From Acidobacteriota bacterium (lineage in GTDB: Bacteria > Acidobacteriota > Polarisedimenticolia > J045): 33,251 nt of DNA. Every line of letters starts with the position of its first letter. Positions within the stretch are counted from its first letter, which is position 1. This document shows positions 1 through 18,756 of this stretch, piece after piece. The DNA lies in NCBI GenBank assembly GCA_024763475.1, contig JANTFM010000006.1, positions 1-33,251 of the forward strand. The letters are read 5' to 3'. The notes under the pieces are model-generated. The model saw only the letters and a list, made by a program, of their open reading frames with translations, had not been told where the DNA came from and made no database searches. The position numbers and the translations under genes were made by a program.

Positions 1-227
1 ACGAACGAGGACCGTCGGTGGCAGGCACCTTGGGTTGAGCAATGTGGGACTCCCGGGTGGCAGGCACCTTGGGTTGAGCAATGTGGGCACACACGACGTA
101 TCCACGAACGAGGACTGTCGGTGGCAGGCACCCAGACTCCCGGGTGGCAGGCACCTTGGGTTGAGCAATGTGGGCACACACGACGTATCCACGAACGAGG
201 ACCGTCGGTGGCAGGCACCCTGGATTG
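1..227. repeat. Interspersed/tandem repeat array with 87-bp higher-order period, core GGTGGCAGGCACC
   Basis: Core GGTGGCAGGCACC at 17, 56, 120, 143 and 207. The 56->143 and 120->207 pairs are both 87 bp apart and the intervening sequence (TTGGGTTGAGCAATGTGGGCACACACGACGTATCCACGAACGAGGAC) is near identical. The array probably continues outside the window. Confidence 0.9.
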
Positions 228-10383: not shown

Positions 10384-10567
10384 ATCGATCTCCGGAGCTT
10401 TGTTTCCGGGGCTGATTATATGGTCCGGGCCGAGCTGGCACCCGTCTGCGTTTGCTCGAAACTCGGCCACTTAGGCCGCCTTTCTCTCGTCCCAGAACGA
10501 AACAGATCCTCCTCGATCGCTTCCCTCAGATTCGGAATCACGTACGGCCCGGGTTTGACCCACAACC

Positions 10568-10590
10568 CCATGGAACCCACGTTTCCATGG
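10568..10590. other. 8-bp perfect inverted repeat CCATGGAA-N7-TTCCATGG
   Basis: Direct reading: ccatggaacccacgtttccatgg, in the divergent spacer between the S55 gene and the small exported ORF. Confidence 0.5.
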
Positions 10591-10624
10591 AGAGAAACAG
10601 CTACGAGAGAATGAGGAGAACCCC

Positions 10625-10984
10625 ATGCGCACAAAAAGCCAACGACTACAGTCCCTGCTGATCGTAGTTGCCGTGCTCTTCGGCGGCTGCCTGACAAGCC
10701 TCGCAACCCCTCCCGGCGAGCAACCCATGGCGCGTGATCTCAGCTTCTCCCACGCGTGGGCCAAGGTCGCCGTGGCCGTCACCTCGCCCGCAGGCCTGGC
10801 GGCCGCCCTCTCTGAAACGAACCTGGTCGCACCGCTATGGCAGCTACTGCAGGCCAAACTCTCAAGCAATAACGAGCCGGCTGACTCCTCGGAACAGGCC
10901 ACAGTCCCGCCGGACACCATGCTCGATGAGCCGCTCTTTGCCGGCGGCGCAGGCGGTGACGAGCCCGCAGGCCCCTGGCCATAG
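10625..10984 (+). CDS. Small exported/lipoprotein-like hypothetical protein
   Basis: MRTKSQRLQSLLIVVAVLFGGCLTS has a basic n-region, hydrophobic core and Cys; AGGAG is upstream of the ATG. Confidence 0.5.
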   Translation: MRTKSQRLQSLLIVVAVLFGGCLTSLATPPGEQPMARDLSFSHAWAKVAVAVTSPAGLAAALSETNLVAPLWQLLQAKLSSNNEPADSSEQATVPPDTMLDEPLFAGGAGGDEPAGPWP

Positions 10985-11097
10985 GATCCACTCCTCATGG
11001 GCCCGGCGCTCTGTCGGCCCTTGCAAATACGTGGCGCCCGACCAGCAACCCCTGGCCGGGCGTCTTCCTGTAGACCCCGCCGTCTCGCCAAGAATCC

Positions 11098-11435
11098 GGT
11101 GCCAGTCACCATCGAGAATCCGGTGCCAGTCACCGTCGTGAGTTCGGTGCCAGTCACCATCCGGGCGAGAGTCTCGGAGTTCGGTCACTGGCACCATCGT
11201 GAGTTCGGTGCCAGTCACCATCGTGAGTTCGGTGACTGGCACCATCCGGGCGAGAGTCCCGGAGTTCGGTCACTGGCACCATCGTGAGTTCGGTGACTGG
11301 CACCATCCGGGCGAGAGTCCCGGAGTTCGGTCACTGGCACCATTGGGTTCGGTAACTGGCACCATCGTGAGTTCGGTGCCACTGGCACCATTGGGTTTGG
11401 TAACTGGCACCATCGTGAGTTCGGTGACTGGCACC
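11098..11435. repeat. Array of 13 copies of a GGTGACTGGCACC / GGTGCCAGTCACC core in mixed orientation
   Basis: Core starts at 11098, 11122, 11146, 11183, 11207, 11231, 11268, 11292, 11329, 11351, 11375, 11399, 11423; spacing is 24 or 37 bp (one 22). The spacer is either ATCGTGAGTTC-like or ATCCGGGCGAGAGTCCCGGAGTTC. Confidence 0.95.
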
Positions 11436-11486
11436 ATCGGGGCGAGAGTTCGGTGGGTTGCATCGGAGTGATAGAATCACTTCCTG

Positions 11487-14400
11487 ATGTCCGACACGCT
11501 GCCTGGCCACAGATATCGGCTTCTCGAAGAGCTCGGCTCGGGGGGGTGCGGGGTTGTCTTCCTCGCGCTGGATACCGTGAGCGGGCAACAGGTTGTCCTC
11601 AAACGTGCGCAGGAGGGTGACGAGGCGCAGGCCTCGCTCAGCGAAGAATTCTCGCGCGTCGCTTCGCTGTCGCATCCCGGGATCGCCCGCGCCCTGGACT
11701 TCATTCCCGGGAAGAAGCGCGAGAGTTCCTTCGTCGTATTCGAGAGGGCACCCGGCCGCGCGTCCACGGAACTCTGCGGAGAGGCCGCCGGCGAGCGCAT
11801 CCTCGGCTGGGCAGCTGCCGTCGCGGAAATCCTGGACTTCCTTCATCTCAGTGGCCTCCTGCATGGCGACCTGAAGCCGGAGCACGTCTTCATCGACGAG
11901 GAGGACGGCGTTCGGCTGATCGACTTCGGACTGGCCCGCGCTCCCGGAGAACCCGGCGGCGGCACGGCGGCGACGGCCGCACCAGAGATTCTCCTGCGCG
12001 GGACCGGAGACGAACGATCGGACCTCTTCAGCCTCGGGGCCACGCTCTTCTACTGGCTCTTCCAACGCTACCCCTGGGGAGAGACTCTCGAGGCTCGCCT
12101 GTCCGTAAAGGCAAGGCGACCCCACATTCCCTTGCGGGATGACCTGCCCAAGGGCGCTCGGCGCCTGCTGCGGGATCTCCTTGCGCCGGAAGCTGGCGAG
12201 AGGATCGGCAGCGCGAGGGAGATCGTCTCCCGCCTGGCCGAGATCGGGATCCCGTTACCCGACCCCTCCCTCTCCTCCCCGGCCACGCGTGCGGGATCCC
12301 TGCCCCTCGTGGGAAGGGACGAGGTCCTGCGACAGCTCGCCCCCGGCTGGTACGCGGGAGCGCAGCAACCCCCGCGCTTCCTCTCCCTGGTCGGACCGGT
12401 GGGTTCCGGACGCTCCCGACTGATCCGCGAGATCGCGCGCCGCGCGAAGACGGCGCAACGCCGCGTGCTCCAGGTCCACGGCAGCGAGAGCGAACTGCCC
12501 CTTTCGCGCCGCCTCGCCGTCGCGATTCGAGCCCAAGCCAGCGTCGGTCCATGCACGGTACTCTTCGACGATGTGGACGAGTTGCCCGAGGAGACCACGA
12601 ACCTGCTACAGGATCTTCCACGCCGCCTTGCCGCGCAGGACTCGCTCGTGGTCGTGACAGCGGGCAGCCGCGCCTTTGGCGACCTCTGGCAGGAGCTTCC
12701 TCTCGAGCCACTCTCCGCGAAACAGTTGCGCGAAGCGTGTCACAACCTTCTCCCCGGTCCACCACCGCCCGCCGGACTCGCGACGCGTCTACTCGAGGCC
12801 AGCGGGGGACGCCCGGGGATCGTCATCGACCTGCTTGCCGGAGCCGTGCGAGCGGGCGTGATCCGCTGCGACGCGACCGGCTGGGACCTGCATCGCCTCG
12901 AGCAGATGCCGCTTGGAGAGCAGGACTCGAAGTCCGCGATCTTACCGGCCTCGCTGCGCGGTGAGCAGAGGGTCGTCGCCCTCGCGCTGCTGACAGCCTC
13001 CGAGCCCCTCGGCCTGCATGCGCTGTCCCGCGCCTCGCACGTTTCCCATTCTCGCGTTGCGGAGGCCATGCGAACCCTCGTGGCGAGCCAACTCGCAGTG
13101 CGCGAAGCCTCCGGCCTGCTCCGCCCTTCGGTACGCGCCAAGAACCTCCAGGGAGTCGCCGATGCGGAGCGGCAACGGTGGCACCAGCGATGGCTCGCGC
13201 TCACGGCCCGCGCCACGCCGGAGCCGGATGCGGTAGCACGCGTGCGCTGGCTGCGGCGGCTCGTGCGACACGCCACGGGAAGCGGACGAACGGAGCTTGC
13301 GGCACGACTGGCGTTGCGTGCGGCAACCCAGGCCGTACGGGCCGGGCGCCCCGACCTGGCCTCCGCGACGCTCGCGGAACTGCCACTCCGAGAGACGTTG
13401 CCCGAGGTGCTGCAGGCGCACCTGCTCCTCGCTTCAGGCGAGATTCACATCGCAAGCGCACGACCCGGCATGGCCGCCCCGGAGTTTAAAGCGGCGCTGG
13501 CCCTCTTCGAACGCCTGGGCCGGAGCACGTCGGCGAGCCGCGCAACAGCGCGACTTGCGCGGGTTCTCGGCGATCTGGGCCAGACCGAGCGCGGCCTCGA
13601 ACTCGTTCGCAGCGCTGCAGCAAGCACGGCCAGCCCCGAAGTGCGATCCCTCGCCCTCGTCGAAGAAGGCATCCTCCTCGCGCGTCAGCACGAGTACACG
13701 GCCGCTCTCGGCCAGTTGGAAGAGGCGCTATCCCTTGCGCCGGCTTCGAGCCATGTCGAGGCGAGAGCTCACGCCGCCCGCGCACGCTGCCTCGTGTTGA
13801 TCGGCCAGCTGGACGAAGCCGAGCGGGAACTCGTCCTCGCTCGCGAGCCCGCCCAGGCCACCGGCGACCGCTCGCTAGAGGCCGCGCTACTCCTCGCCGA
13901 AGGCCAAGCCTCGCTCGCTGCAGGACATCCACGCCGCCTGCTCGACCAGGTTCCACGCATCCGCGAGGCGCTCCTAGCGCGCGGAGAGGCGGATGGCCTC
14001 GGTATGCTCTCCGCCCTGATCTCCGATGCGGAATCGATGCTCGGCAACTGGGACCGCGCACTCGAAGCCGCTCTCGATTCCGTGCGCTGGCGTGAGGTCC
14101 ACGGACATCTGGGCTGGCTCGCCGTGGCGTGGAACCGCCTGGCGCGCATCCACCTGCTGCGGGGTTCCCTCCCCGCCACCCGGGCGGCGGCTCGCCGCGC
14201 GAGAGATCTCGCGGAAGAGTCCCGCTTCGCCCCGGCGCTCAGCGAGGCCCGAGCCGTCCTCGCCCGTATCCTCATTCTCGAAGACAAGCTCCACGACGCC
14301 CGCCGTCTCGGCGACGCCGCGATCTCCTCGAGCGAAAGCTCGGAGCACGTGCCCGCCCGAGTGGAGGCCCTGATCGCGCGAGCGCTGGTCTGCCGGGCCG

Positions 14401-16268
14401 ATGGGGAATCCCGTGAGGCTGCCGACCTGGCAGGCCGGGCCCTCGAGATATCTCCCGTCCTCAAGACCAACTCTGCTGCAGAGGTCGAGGCCCTCGCGTT
14501 GAGCGCCGAGTCCCTGGCCAAGGACGATCCCGAAGAAGCCGTCGCACTCGCCCGCCGCGCATGGCGGGTCGCGGACCGGCGGGGTCTCTTCGACGCGGGC
14601 GTTCTGGCCCTTGCCGCGCGAGAAAGCGCCTTGATCGCTGCCGGACGAGACGAGGAAGCCTCGTCCCTCCGCCGCTGGGCGGCAGCACGGATCGAAGAGG
14701 CTGCCGGCCGCCTCGCAGATCACGTCGCGCGCCGCACCTTCCTCGAGCGCCCGGATCGACTCCGCCTGCTTGAGGCGACGGGCTCGCGAGAGGGACAACG
14801 CCTCGAGGCGCTCTACGAGATCGTGGCGGCACTCAACAGCCTGCACAACTCGGGCCGGGTGGCCGAGACGCTGATGGATAAGGCGCTCGAGCTTCTCGGC
14901 GCGGAGCAGGGTGCGGTCGTTCTGGCCAACTCCGAGGGCACACTCGAGGTCGTTCTCTGCCGCGGCGTCGAGGAAGAGACGGCTGCCGATGCGCTGAGGC
15001 TCTCGCAGACCATCCTCGAGAGAGCCCACGGCGGCGAGTCCATCCTGACGCTTTCCCCGGCCACGGATCCTCGCTTCCACGAGGCGGCCTCGGTCCGCCT
15101 CTTCGGCATCCGCGCGGTGCTCTGCGTCCCGCTGCGCTGGAAGGGCCGGCTCGTCGGTGCGATTTACCTCGACAGCCGGGATCCGGGCCATCGCTTCGAC
15201 CGGGGGGATCTCAGGTTCCTCGAGGCCCTCTCGGATCACGCTGCACTCGCACTCGAAAACGCGCGGGCCTTCACCCGGCTCGAATTGGAGAACGACCAGC
15301 TGCGCGCGGATCTCGGCGAGCGAGACCGCCTCGGTGAGATCCTCGGGCGCTCGGCCTCGATGCGGGAACTGTTCCGCGTCATCGAGGCCTCGGCGCCCAG
15401 CGACGTCCCGGTGCTCGTCACAGGCGAGTCTGGCACCGGCAAGGAACTCGTTGCACGCTCTCTGCATCGCCTGGGCCGCCATCCGGAGGGCCCCTTCGTC
15501 CCCGTCAACTGCGCCGCCATCCCGGAGGACATTTTCGAGTCCATGCTCTTCGGGCACGAACGAGGAGCATTCACCGGTGCGGAACGCTCGCGGCCCGGCC
15601 TCATCGCCCAAGCCCACTCCGGTACGCTCTTCCTCGATGAGATCGGCGACATGCCGACAACGATGCAGGTCAAGCTCCTGCGCGTTCTCGAGGAGCAGTG
15701 TGTGCAACCCCTCGGCGCCTCGACGACACGCAACGTGGACATCCGTGTCGTCACAGCCACCAACCGCGACTTGAGCGCGGCAACCCGCGCCGGAGCGTTC
15801 CGCGAAGATCTGCTCTACCGCATCGACGTCCTACGCGTGCGCATCCCCCCCTTGCGCGAACGCGTCGAGGATATCCCGCTCCTGGCACAACACATCCTCG
15901 CAGGGATGCAGTCCAGCTTCGGCCCGCTGCGAGCTACGCCCGAGCTCCTCGCGAGACTGGCAACCTGGTCCTGGCCCGGCAACGTCAGGGAGCTGGAAAA
16001 CACCCTCTCCCGCCTCGCTCTGCGCTGCGAGGGCGGCATCATCGACCTCGAGACCCTCATGGCCGATCCCGACTCGCGCCACTGCTTCGGCGACTCGCGG
16101 GAAGAGAGCCAGACCGACCTCGAGAAGGTCGAGCGGGACGCAATCCGCAGAGCCCTTGAAGTCACCTCCGGCCACCGCGTGCGCGCTGCGGGCCTCCTTG
16201 GCATCGGCCGGGCCACTCTCTTCCGCAAGATTCGCCGCTACGGGCTCGAGCAGGTGGGACGCTCCTGA
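11487..16268 (+). CDS. Ser/Thr protein kinase - NTPase - TPR - GAF - sigma-54 interaction AAA+ - Fis-type HTH fusion regulator
   Basis: Kinase: LGSGGCGVVFLA, VVLKRA, HGDLKPEHVF, DFG, APE. GPVGSGRS P-loop-like. GAF-like segment ~1130-1280. Sigma54 domain: GESGTGKELVARSLH, GAFTGA, GTLFLDEIGDMP. C-terminal helix-turn-helix RAAGLLGIGRATLFRKIRRYGL. Confidence 0.93.
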   Translation: MSDTLPGHRYRLLEELGSGGCGVVFLALDTVSGQQVVLKRAQEGDEAQASLSEEFSRVASLSHPGIARALDFIPGKKRESSFVVFERAPGRASTELCGEAAGERILGWAAAVAEILDFLHLSGLLHGDLKPEHVFIDEEDGVRLIDFGLARAPGEPGGGTAATAAPEILLRGTGDERSDLFSLGATLFYWLFQRYPWGETLEARLSVKARRPHIPLRDDLPKGARRLLRDLLAPEAGERIGSAREIVSRLAEIGIPLPDPSLSSPATRAGSLPLVGRDEVLRQLAPGWYAGAQQPPRFLSLVGPVGSGRSRLIREIARRAKTAQRRVLQVHGSESELPLSRRLAVAIRAQASVGPCTVLFDDVDELPEETTNLLQDLPRRLAAQDSLVVVTAGSRAFGDLWQELPLEPLSAKQLREACHNLLPGPPPPAGLATRLLEASGGRPGIVIDLLAGAVRAGVIRCDATGWDLHRLEQMPLGEQDSKSAILPASLRGEQRVVALALLTASEPLGLHALSRASHVSHSRVAEAMRTLVASQLAVREASGLLRPSVRAKNLQGVADAERQRWHQRWLALTARATPEPDAVARVRWLRRLVRHATGSGRTELAARLALRAATQAVRAGRPDLASATLAELPLRETLPEVLQAHLLLASGEIHIASARPGMAAPEFKAALALFERLGRSTSASRATARLARVLGDLGQTERGLELVRSAAASTASPEVRSLALVEEGILLARQHEYTAALGQLEEALSLAPASSHVEARAHAARARCLVLIGQLDEAERELVLAREPAQATGDRSLEAALLLAEGQASLAAGHPRRLLDQVPRIREALLARGEADGLGMLSALISDAESMLGNWDRALEAALDSVRWREVHGHLGWLAVAWNRLARIHLLRGSLPATRAAARRARDLAEESRFAPALSEARAVLARILILEDKLHDARRLGDAAISSSESSEHVPARVEALIARALVCRADGESREAADLAGRALEISPVLKTNSAAEVEALALSAESLAKDDPEEAVALARRAWRVADRRGLFDAGVLALAARESALIAAGRDEEASSLRRWAAARIEEAAGRLADHVARRTFLERPDRLRLLEATGSREGQRLEALYEIVAALNSLHNSGRVAETLMDKALELLGAEQGAVVLANSEGTLEVVLCRGVEEETAADALRLSQTILERAHGGESILTLSPATDPRFHEAASVRLFGIRAVLCVPLRWKGRLVGAIYLDSRDPGHRFDRGDLRFLEALSDHAALALENARAFTRLELENDQLRADLGERDRLGEILGRSASMRELFRVIEASAPSDVPVLVTGESGTGKELVARSLHRLGRHPEGPFVPVNCAAIPEDIFESMLFGHERGAFTGAERSRPGLIAQAHSGTLFLDEIGDMPTTMQVKLLRVLEEQCVQPLGASTTRNVDIRVVTATNRDLSAATRAGAFREDLLYRIDVLRVRIPPLRERVEDIPLLAQHILAGMQSSFGPLRATPELLARLATWSWPGNVRELENTLSRLALRCEGGIIDLETLMADPDSRHCFGDSREESQTDLEKVERDAIRRALEVTSGHRVRAAGLLGIGRATLFRKIRRYGLEQVGRS

Positions 16269-16432: not shown

Positions 16433-17099
16433 CTGACTCCATGCGCTGGACCTCTCCCCGGAGGGTCGTGAAGCATCTCGCTATAACACAGCGTCTTAGG
16501 CCGTTTTCTTCGGATTCGCTCATTCTGGCTTACGCCTTGCATTAGCTGGTGGAGCGAACAGGAGCTGGCCCCCACCGGACCCTGCTTCGTCATGAGGCGT
16601 TCACGCAGCAGGCTGGATAGCAGCACCTGTCTGCAGAGCTTCATAACTCAGGACATTAACCTGGCTTTGGCATGTCAGGCGGCGAACTTCCCTTGAACTC
16701 CCTCCGACCGCTCCCCGGAGGTTCGCCGGTCCCGCCCGATGGATGGGGCCGCGATTCGGGCTTCCCCGACCCTGCAGTTCCCGAGCGCGGCCCCACCACA
16801 CTTGCCTGCCCGCGACAGGTTCCTGCGCCTCGAGATCTCCTGTTGCGTCTCTGAACTTCCCCGCCCCCTCCTCTCTCTGCACACCCCTTGCGCCTCTACA
16901 GCTTTCTGGCGCGTTGGTACCTCCTGCATCTCTCCACGTCCCTTGCTCCACCACTCTTCCCTGCACCACCACGGGTCCCCCCGCTTGAAGACCGGCCCAA
17001 CCAGAACCAGCCCTTTGCCTTGGCCTTGGCGGGATGCTCTCTGTTCGTTGGCTCCTGAGATGCACGAGGACGAACGAGCCTTTGCGAGATGCAAGGTCG

Positions 17100-17233
17100 A
17101 ACCCGATCCTGGGAGGCTCAAGGACGGACAAACTCAGGAGGCACAAGGACGAACCCGATCTCGCGAGGCGCAAGGACGAACAAACTCAGGAGGCACAAGG
17201 ACGAACCCGATCTCGGGAGGCGCAAGGACGAAC
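17100..17233. repeat. 52-bp tandem repeat (2.6 copies) built from ~26-bp half units
   Basis: AACCCGATC starts at 17100, 17152 and 17204; both half-units end in CAAGGACG. 52 is not a multiple of 3, so it is not a coding repeat. Confidence 0.85.
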
Positions 17234-17259
17234 GCGAAAGGCGAACTCGGCTCGGCGTT

Positions 17260-18756
17260 CTATTCGTTCCCTTGTCGCGGCTTGTGCCCTTGCCGCGGCG
17301 TGTGCCCGGGCCTCGCCTTGCTCTCGACCGCCGATGTCATCGCCTGCAGGAGCCTCAGTGCCGCATCAGATCCATCGAGCGGGGCACGCAGCCACTTGCG
17401 AAAGACCCCCTTGCCGATGCGCCCCTGCCTCAACCCCAACGCCAGCAGGCGGCCGAGCCAAGAGCCGAACACGCGGACCTTCCTGCGCTCATCGGCTGGG
17501 GAGGCGGGTTCTTCGGCACCGAGAAGCACTCGTTCCCAGCCAGGCTCCTCCTCGAGCGCGGGATCCACAACCATCGCCAGCGCGAACGCCAGCGCCTCGA
17601 CCGCGAGCAGGGACCAGAAGCTCGGGTCGTCCAGCTCAGGCCGCAAGGCCAGCGCCAGGAAACGGCCGCTCTCAAGGGCCAGGGGGCGAACACCCTTGCG
17701 ACCCACGAGAAAGACACCGTCCCGGTGAAGGTAGAGAGCACCTCGCCTCGCAGCTCGATCCCGCAACACGCGAGCCGAGGCCGGCGTCCGGCCAGACTCT
17801 CGCAACCTGCGCAGCACTCGTGCCTTCTCCAGGGGCCCGTAGACCTCGGGCTTGACATCCGCGAGCCAGCGACCTGGCCCCATGCGAAAACGGCGTGGAT
17901 CGATCCCCAGCGCCGCGGCCTCGGCGTCGATCACGCCATGGACCGCAAGGGGCAGATCGATCTCACCCTTCTCGATGATGTCCTCGGCCCAGGAGCGATA
18001 CACGCTGGCGAGGGCGCGCAGCCGCGCACCGGGGGCATGCGCCTGTCGCAGAAGAAGGTCGGGATCTCCCAGATACCAGCCTGGAGCCGCGAGATCCTCG
18101 CGCTCCGGATCGTGCAGGATGCGTACGATCCGAGAGCCAGGATTCAACCTGCGGAGGAGTTCCCGGGGCAAATGCGCCGAAGCCAGATGGGCCTCCCCGA
18201 ACAACACGAGGGCTCGCTCACCCTTCCCCTCCTCAAGGAGGCAGGCGAGGCGCTCGGCGGCGATTCGGTCCCGCAATGCGAGATCGGCACTCCCACCCCG
18301 CGGGGGAATGTCCAGCGCGCGGACGCGTGCGCCACAGCTCTTCGCCACCATCAGCAACTTGCGCAGAACAGGCCAGCTGTAACCCCACTCCTCCTCGAAG
18401 CGAATCCGGCGCCGGAACTCCCGCTGGCCGATCGCTCCTGAGAGGAAGGCGTCGAGGGCCGGCTGATCCCGCGCAAAGACGAACTCGAGACCGAGCAGGC
18501 ACTTCCGCCCACGCCGCGACCAGTCCTCCAGGAACTCGGCGCAACTCCGGGCAGCACTGTCGAGCGGGTGATACTCGCCAACGAGCAGGACATCCGCTCT
18601 GGCCGCGACATCGAGGGCTCGGGCCCTGCAAATCGACCCAAAGCTCGAGCAGGCCAGTTCGCGCTCGTAGCGCCTGACGTAGGGGGATTCCGCTGTCTTG
18701 TCGTAGATGCCGAGCGAACGCCTCAGCTCCTCGGCATCGAGGCAGCCGGTGGCCAG
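17260..18756 (-). CDS. ChaN-like (Tiki/TraB-superfamily-like) protein; start uncertain, probably CTG at 18756
   Basis: Manual translation upstream of the listed TTG start (18357) is open back to the tatA TAG stop and contains ADVLLVGEYHPLDSAA...CLLGLEFVFARDQPALDAFL...RRIRFEEEWGYSWPVLRKLLMVAKSCG, with a second LVLFGEAHLASAHLP motif, typical of ChaN. Confidence 0.75.
   Translation of the reverse strand: MATGCLDAEELRRSLGIYDKTAESPYVRRYERELACSSFGSICRARALDVAARADVLLVGEYHPLDSAARSCAEFLEDWSRRGRKCLLGLEFVFARDQPALDAFLSGAIGQREFRRRIRFEEEWGYSWPVLRKLLMVAKSCGARVRALDIPPRGGSADLALRDRIAAERLACLLEEGKGERALVLFGEAHLASAHLPRELLRRLNPGSRIVRILHDPEREDLAAPGWYLGDPDLLLRQAHAPGARLRALASVYRSWAEDIIEKGEIDLPLAVHGVIDAEAAALGIDPRRFRMGPGRWLADVKPEVYGPLEKARVLRRLRESGRTPASARVLRDRAARRGALYLHRDGVFLVGRKGVRPLALESGRFLALALRPELDDPSFWSLLAVEALAFALAMVVDPALEEEPGWERVLLGAEEPASPADERRKVRVFGSWLGRLLALGLRQGRIGKGVFRKWLRAPLDGSDAALRLLQAMTSAVESKARPGHTPRQGHKPRQGNE

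Follow-up and report, generated by a model that had tools for sequence, protein, structure and literature searches.

A 13-copy array upstream of a kinase–sigma54 activator gene in an Acidobacteriota bacterium is very probably an expanded cluster of a dispersed REP-like repeat

The stretch of Acidobacteriota DNA analyzed here (33,251 nucleotides; hereafter, the window) carries a tandem array of 13 short palindromic cores directly upstream of a gene that encodes a 1593-aa regulator. We conclude that the array is very probably a locally expanded cluster of a dispersed, RAYT-associated REP-like repeat that landed upstream of the regulator gene. This reading is based on the occurrence of the repeat in dispersed, mainly intergenic clusters, on a RAYT gene that is flanked by the same repeat, and on the finding that, of the relatives searched, none shares the repeat with this lineage. 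The array most likely represents ordinary mobile repeat DNA and not a dedicated control array; its proximity to the regulator gene is most likely incidental, and it probably has no dedicated role for the regulator. An earlier note on this DNA, made from the sequence alone, had offered three readings: that the array is a set of binding sites, that it forms a structured RNA, or that a mobile REP-like repeat has expanded. Dispersal and the RAYT gene support the last of these, whereas the other two found no support.

Structure of the array

The features of the locus are collected in Table 1. The cores start at positions 11098, 11122, 11146, 11183, 11207, 11231, 11268, 11292, 11329, 11351, 11375, 11399, and 11423. 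The array with 24- and 37-bp spacing described in the earlier note is real, and its series of spacings (24, 24, 37, 24, 24, 37, 24, 37, 22, 24, 24, and 24 bp, including the one 22) is reproduced, provided that copy 11 is taken to be the 15-bp variant (GGTGCCACTGGCACC) with its start at 11375. The note had also described 13 copies of one core sequence. Thirteen cores are present, but only seven are exactly GGTGACTGGCACC, four of them on the - strand (11098, 11122, 11146, and 11207) and three on the + strand (11231, 11292, and 11423); the other six comprise three copies of GGTCACTGGCACC, two of GGTAACTGGCACC, and the single 15-bp variant. Similarly, the cores do occur in both orientations (nine on the + strand and four on the - strand), but the flanks of the four reversed cores are not flipped with them. 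In these copies, the flip is confined to the core, in effect to a 5-bp loop (CCAGT for ACTGG), and the flanks stay in the + orientation, with GAGTTC or GAATCC on the left and an ATC/GTC-type spacer on the right. In the whole window, there are 43 matches to the core at up to three mismatches, compared to a mean of 12.3 in shuffled sequences, and this number is not attained in any of 100 dinucleotide shuffles. The distance from the end of the array to the ATG of the regulator (11487) is 51 bp, in agreement with the approximately 50 bp given earlier.

Table 1. Features of the array and its surroundings in the window.
Feature	Position	Strand	Basis
Five copies of a related variant of the repeat, GGTGGCAGGCACC, where the contig begins	17–219	+	
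Conserved small ORF, 119 aa, ends GGDEPAGPWP; upstream limit of the intergenic region	10625–10984	+	
Inverted repeat GCCCG-A-CCAG...CTGG-C-CGGGC, possible terminator of the small ORF	11036–11061	+	inference, read from sequence
Array of 13 REP-like cores (9 +, 4 -), expanded in 24-, 37- (61-, 85-) bp blocks	11098–11435		
Two 85-bp blocks (11122–11206 and 11207–11291), 94 per cent identical	11122–11291	+	
61-bp block repeat; 11231–11282 and 11292–11343 are identical	11231–11343	+	
15-bp core variant GGTGCCACTGGCACC, more perfectly palindromic than the other cores, with a weak terminator-like match	11375–11389	+	
Half unit GAGTTCGGTG, downstream edge of the array	11446–11455	+	read from sequence
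TAGAAT, possible -10 element of the regulator, 3' of the array	11472–11477	+	inference
1593-aa regulator: Pkinase, AAA/TPR, GAF, Sigma54_activat, and Fis-type HTH_8 domains	11487–16268	+	

Tandem Repeats Finder detects periods of 24, 37, 61, and 85 bp in the array. The two 85-bp blocks differ at five positions, three of which belong to one loop flip (CCAGT to ACTGG), and the 61-bp block is also repeated. Given these near-identical blocks, the order of the two spacers is a trace of 61- and 85-bp block duplication and gives no evidence of a constraint on spacing. The order of the two-spacer alphabet, which the earlier note had called greater than that of a decayed tandem repeat, is therefore explained by the block duplications and does not support a function.

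The loop flips (11098–11219 versus 11231–11435) and the more palindromic 15-bp core resemble hairpin template-switch events. In yeast, template switching at short inverted repeats leads to spacer inversion and arm homogenization, and most spacer inversions required arms longer than 9 bp (PMC8604942). The array is similar in that a 5-bp loop is flipped in place with unchanged flanks and that one variant has more complementary arms. It differs from the yeast system in the length of the arms, which is mostly 4 bp in the copies in the window and 10 bp in the consensus unit.

The repeat across the genome

The core is dispersed and not specific to the regulator gene. Genome-wide, the exact core occurs 39 times (versus 0 for a reversed-pattern control), GGTNNCTGGCACC has 73 matches (versus two for the reversed pattern), and GAGTTCGGTNACTGGCACC, at up to two mismatches, has 54 (versus one in the control). 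The copies form about a dozen clusters (on contigs C6, which is the window, C11, C32, C74, C109, C138, C232, C236, C247, C259, and C318), although the numbers and sizes of clusters may be off in this fragmented draft of 4.05 Mb in 484 contigs. Several clusters are located at contig ends, as is expected if the repeats broke the assembly. Besides tandems, the repeat also occurs as single copies and inverted pairs. Four solitary matches inside genes (on C43, C113, C285, and C316), most of which lack the flanking arms, were regarded as unrelated or due to chance.

The consensus of 67 oriented copies is a 25-bp palindrome, GAGTTC-GGTGACTGGCACC-GAACTC, which can be written as GAGTTC-GGTG-ACTGG-CACC-GAACTC or as GAGTTCGGTG-ACTGG-CACCGAACTC. 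The unit is capable of forming a stem-loop and falls within the size range of ~20–40 bp; the copies in the window, however, mostly lack its right-hand arm. Across the 67 copies, no tetranucleotide is conserved beside the palindrome, and hence there is no GT(A/G)G head; there is little conservation outside of the palindrome in general.

The clusters are mainly intergenic, several of them situated between convergent genes, according to a codon-usage gene call carried out with a home-made script on the fetched stretches only. Overlaps with the ends of predicted ORFs occur in two clusters (C247 and C318) and in a single copy on C109. Scatter without relation to gene class, combined with copy numbers that vary between strains, was named in the earlier note as a sign that a regulatory role is unlikely. 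The clusters are indeed scattered, and no relation to this type of regulator was seen among those neighbors of the other clusters that were identified.

Other repeats were observed in the course of the search. The GGTGGCAGGCACC copies at the start of the window (17–219) lie in an 87-bp tandem repeat, and contig C106 starts with the reverse of this repeat; C6 and C106 may be neighbors that were split there. At one end of contig C318 (L034 17–146), a second array has the same core, a 24-bp period, and GAACCCTCGCT-type spacers, and it resembles the flipped part of the array in the window. Elsewhere in the window, a 147-bp unit is present between genes in two tandem copies (1533–1827; 93 per cent identical), and a tandem repeat with periods of 27 and 52 bp (17092–17237) adjoins a predicted gene (17260–18357).

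An associated RAYT-type transposase

Among the five PF01797 matches in the genome, the best (E = 1e-15) is a 224-aa protein encoded on contig C74 (C74:4297-4971; L021:2298-2972). Both the HUH motif NHVH and the single-tyrosine motif YVELNP are found in its translation. Its best NCBIfam model is REP_Tyr_transpos (E = 1.9e-19; 70 bits, with a cut-off of 80), versus 29 bits for IS200. The gene is present in a single copy, the next matches in the genome being ~30 per cent identical, and this low copy number is unlike that of an insertion sequence. A search of solved structures with the protein returned no match at E = 0.001. The earlier note had pointed to a REP-associated tyrosine transposase as the partner to look for, and the C74 gene does have the same repeat on both sides, in inverted arrangement: five copies precede it in one orientation, and one opposite copy lies 93 bp after its stop codon. 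With 12 clusters placed at random, the chance of a cluster on each side of the gene is ~2e-5.

By motifs only, the protein is assigned to TnpA-REP subclass 2.1 (RAYT group 1), which has NHVH and Y[IV]xLNP-type motifs and a median length of 238 aa, and which includes 20 of the 26 published TIRYTs (PMC6006769). The 224-aa C74 protein matches this subclass in NHVH, YVELNP, and an SS motif after the core (PWSSAAAH), but its W motif is WA and not W[EQ]. Moreover, the survey found no REP-like repeats beside subclass 2.1 genes (PMC6006769), whereas the C74 gene has flanking repeats.

The closest description of this arrangement is that of TIRtrons, in which RAYT-like (TIRYT) genes are flanked by untagged inverted repeats; some of these repeats are dispersed and clustered, some are self-complementary, and many, but not all, contain GGGGWSAS (PMC3733652). 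Likewise, the C74 RAYT-like gene lies between inverted repeats that lack a GTAG tag, copies of the repeat are dispersed and occur in dimers and clusters, and orthologs of the transposase carry the published GGGGWSAS in their flanking repeats. Unlike in TIRtrons, the repeat has GGTGCCAG in place of GGGGWSAS, is self-palindromic, and has grown into a 13-copy tandem array. With classical REPs and BIMEs and their RAYTs (PMC2817692; PMC8266576), it shares a short, mainly intergenic palindrome of 20–40 bp, clusters in both orientations, and a RAYT gene between inverted copies. However, it lacks the GT(A/G)G head that REPs in the sense of PMC2817692 carry, and its ~70 copies are fewer than those of most classical families. 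The repeat is RAYT-associated but untagged, and hence is not a classical GTRG REP; it represents a new family within a known kind of repeat.

Repeats and transposase orthologs in relatives

The GGTGACTGGCACC core is absent from all 11 of the same-family genomes searched. In one genome per species (84,980 species, a set that may omit the genome of the window itself), the exact 19-mer has 15 single matches in unrelated bacteria and no cluster. Because this number is of the same order as a rough chance estimate (~7), we regard these matches as chance.

Orthologs of the C74 transposase, 42–55 per cent identical, were found in six related genomes (G014, G031, G035, G023, G025, and G042), and all have inverted repeats on their flanks. 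Five of the orthologs have GGGGACAG or GGGGACAC in these repeats, the sixth (in G025) has AGGGACAG, and the GGGGWSAS motif is located beside the orthologs in G014, G031, G035, G023, and G042. Of 18 positions, 13 are shared between the repeat next to the G023 ortholog and the repeat described here, a level reached by 0.025 per cent of letter shuffles. In two of the relatives, TTTCGGGGACAGGC is dispersed, with 29 matches in G031 and 49 in G035 (two in each control). It is often arranged there in inverted pairs ~34 bp apart and flanks the RAYT-like genes of these genomes, and it constitutes a second family of dispersed repeats within the class.

The regulator locus and its array-free counterparts

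The domains of the 1593-aa ORF (Table 1) bear out its description as a kinase–sigma54 activator. A small ORF with a GD-x-x-x-GPWP end precedes the same regulator in G001, G003, G005, and G006, and the match in G002 is weaker (E = 5e-5). The gap between the small ORF and the regulator gene is 502 bp in the window, compared to 162 bp in G005, 61 bp in G003, 127 bp in G006, about 395 bp in G002, and 68 or 131 bp, depending on the start codon, in G001. In none of these five related genera is there an array upstream of the orthologous regulator, nor do these loci contain, upstream of the regulator, tandem repeats of the array's kind. Since all five keep the pair of genes, the regulator and its partner exist without the array. 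The small ORF may encode a cognate partner of the regulator or its signal. It has a likely signal peptide and a conserved C-terminal GD(D/E)xxGPWP and is present in one copy per genome; in G006, the motif GDDPSGPWP occurs three times.

The possible -10 element TAGAAT has counterparts upstream of orthologous regulators (TACGAT, TAGACT, TAGACT, and TAAAAT), and a scan for sigma-70 promoters in 10950–11520 returned nothing. In the same interval, a scan for terminators, which demands a T-rich tail and did not pick up the inverted repeat at 11036–11061, returned one weak site, within the 15-bp core variant.

Alternative explanations

The cores might be operator or enhancer sites that control transcription of the regulator gene, bound either by its product through the Fis-type HTH domain or by a different factor. 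Thirteen sites within 340 bp, placed so close to the start codon and followed by a possible -10 element, would suit such a role, and imperfect palindromes fit a dimeric binder. Yet the same repeat is found in about a dozen other clusters, several of them in gaps between convergent genes, where a promoter would not be expected, and it flanks a transposase gene. In addition, orthologs of the regulator in five related genera have no such array. Neither 24 nor 37 bp corresponds to a whole number of helical turns, and block duplication explains both distances. We therefore consider a dedicated binding array improbable, although a repeat cluster could have been co-opted for regulation afterwards. 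Even less credible, and in our judgment very improbable, is a minisatellite that formed in situ through slippage, without mobile origin, and whose likeness to the other clusters would be a coincidence or the result of gene conversion. Tandem expansion with nested periods is evident in the array, but the identical 19-bp unit recurs in many separate clusters while hardly appearing in random controls, and it is also present as singles and inverted pairs and around the transposase gene. In-place slippage is thus contradicted as the origin by the dispersed copies, and it holds as the mode of local growth.

Folding bears on the remaining alternative, according to which the array acts as RNA, in the form of a leader, attenuator, or terminator, when the regulator or the small ORF before it is transcribed. 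The 406-nt region as a whole is more stable than shuffled sequences (RNA z = -5.28; DNA z = -6.14) and contains the one terminator-like match (11375–11389), but a single, one-armed core from the window folds no better than shuffles (z = 0.13); the form of the repeat on C74, with both arms, has a z of -2.97. The folding signal in the window is that of opposite copies pairing at a distance. Such pairing is expected of any array with both orientations. Furthermore, no Rfam match was found in 10400–11700 at E up to 1, and the array is not conserved in relatives. These results make a structured RNA very improbable.

Proposed origin and implications

For the mobile REP-like repeat that we favor, the RAYT-type HUH/Y1 transposase encoded on C74 most probably mobilizes the repeat as folded single-stranded DNA. 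In the order of events that we envisage, one unit would have been inserted between the small-ORF gene and the regulator gene and would have lost one outer arm. Replication slippage or unequal recombination may then have duplicated 24-, 61-, and 85-bp blocks, which would account for the 24/37 spacing, and both the loop flips and the 15-bp variant resemble products of hairpin-templated template switching.

A more tentative proposal, which we regard as possible but rather doubtful, is that a subclass 2.1-like RAYT turned GGGGACAG-type terminal inverted repeats into a new, untagged palindromic repeat that is spreading and being amplified in the genome. The similarity of the G023 repeat to the repeat of this genome hints at such a transition from terminal repeats to REPs, which, if true, would be visible by comparison within one bacterial class.

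The analysis recasts a striking "regulatory array" as a cluster of mobile repeats and guards against false annotation of operators. For the evolution of REPs and RAYTs, it provides a transposase and orthologs with differing flanking repeats that can be compared within one class, and this comparison makes it possible to test whether REP families originate from terminal repeats.
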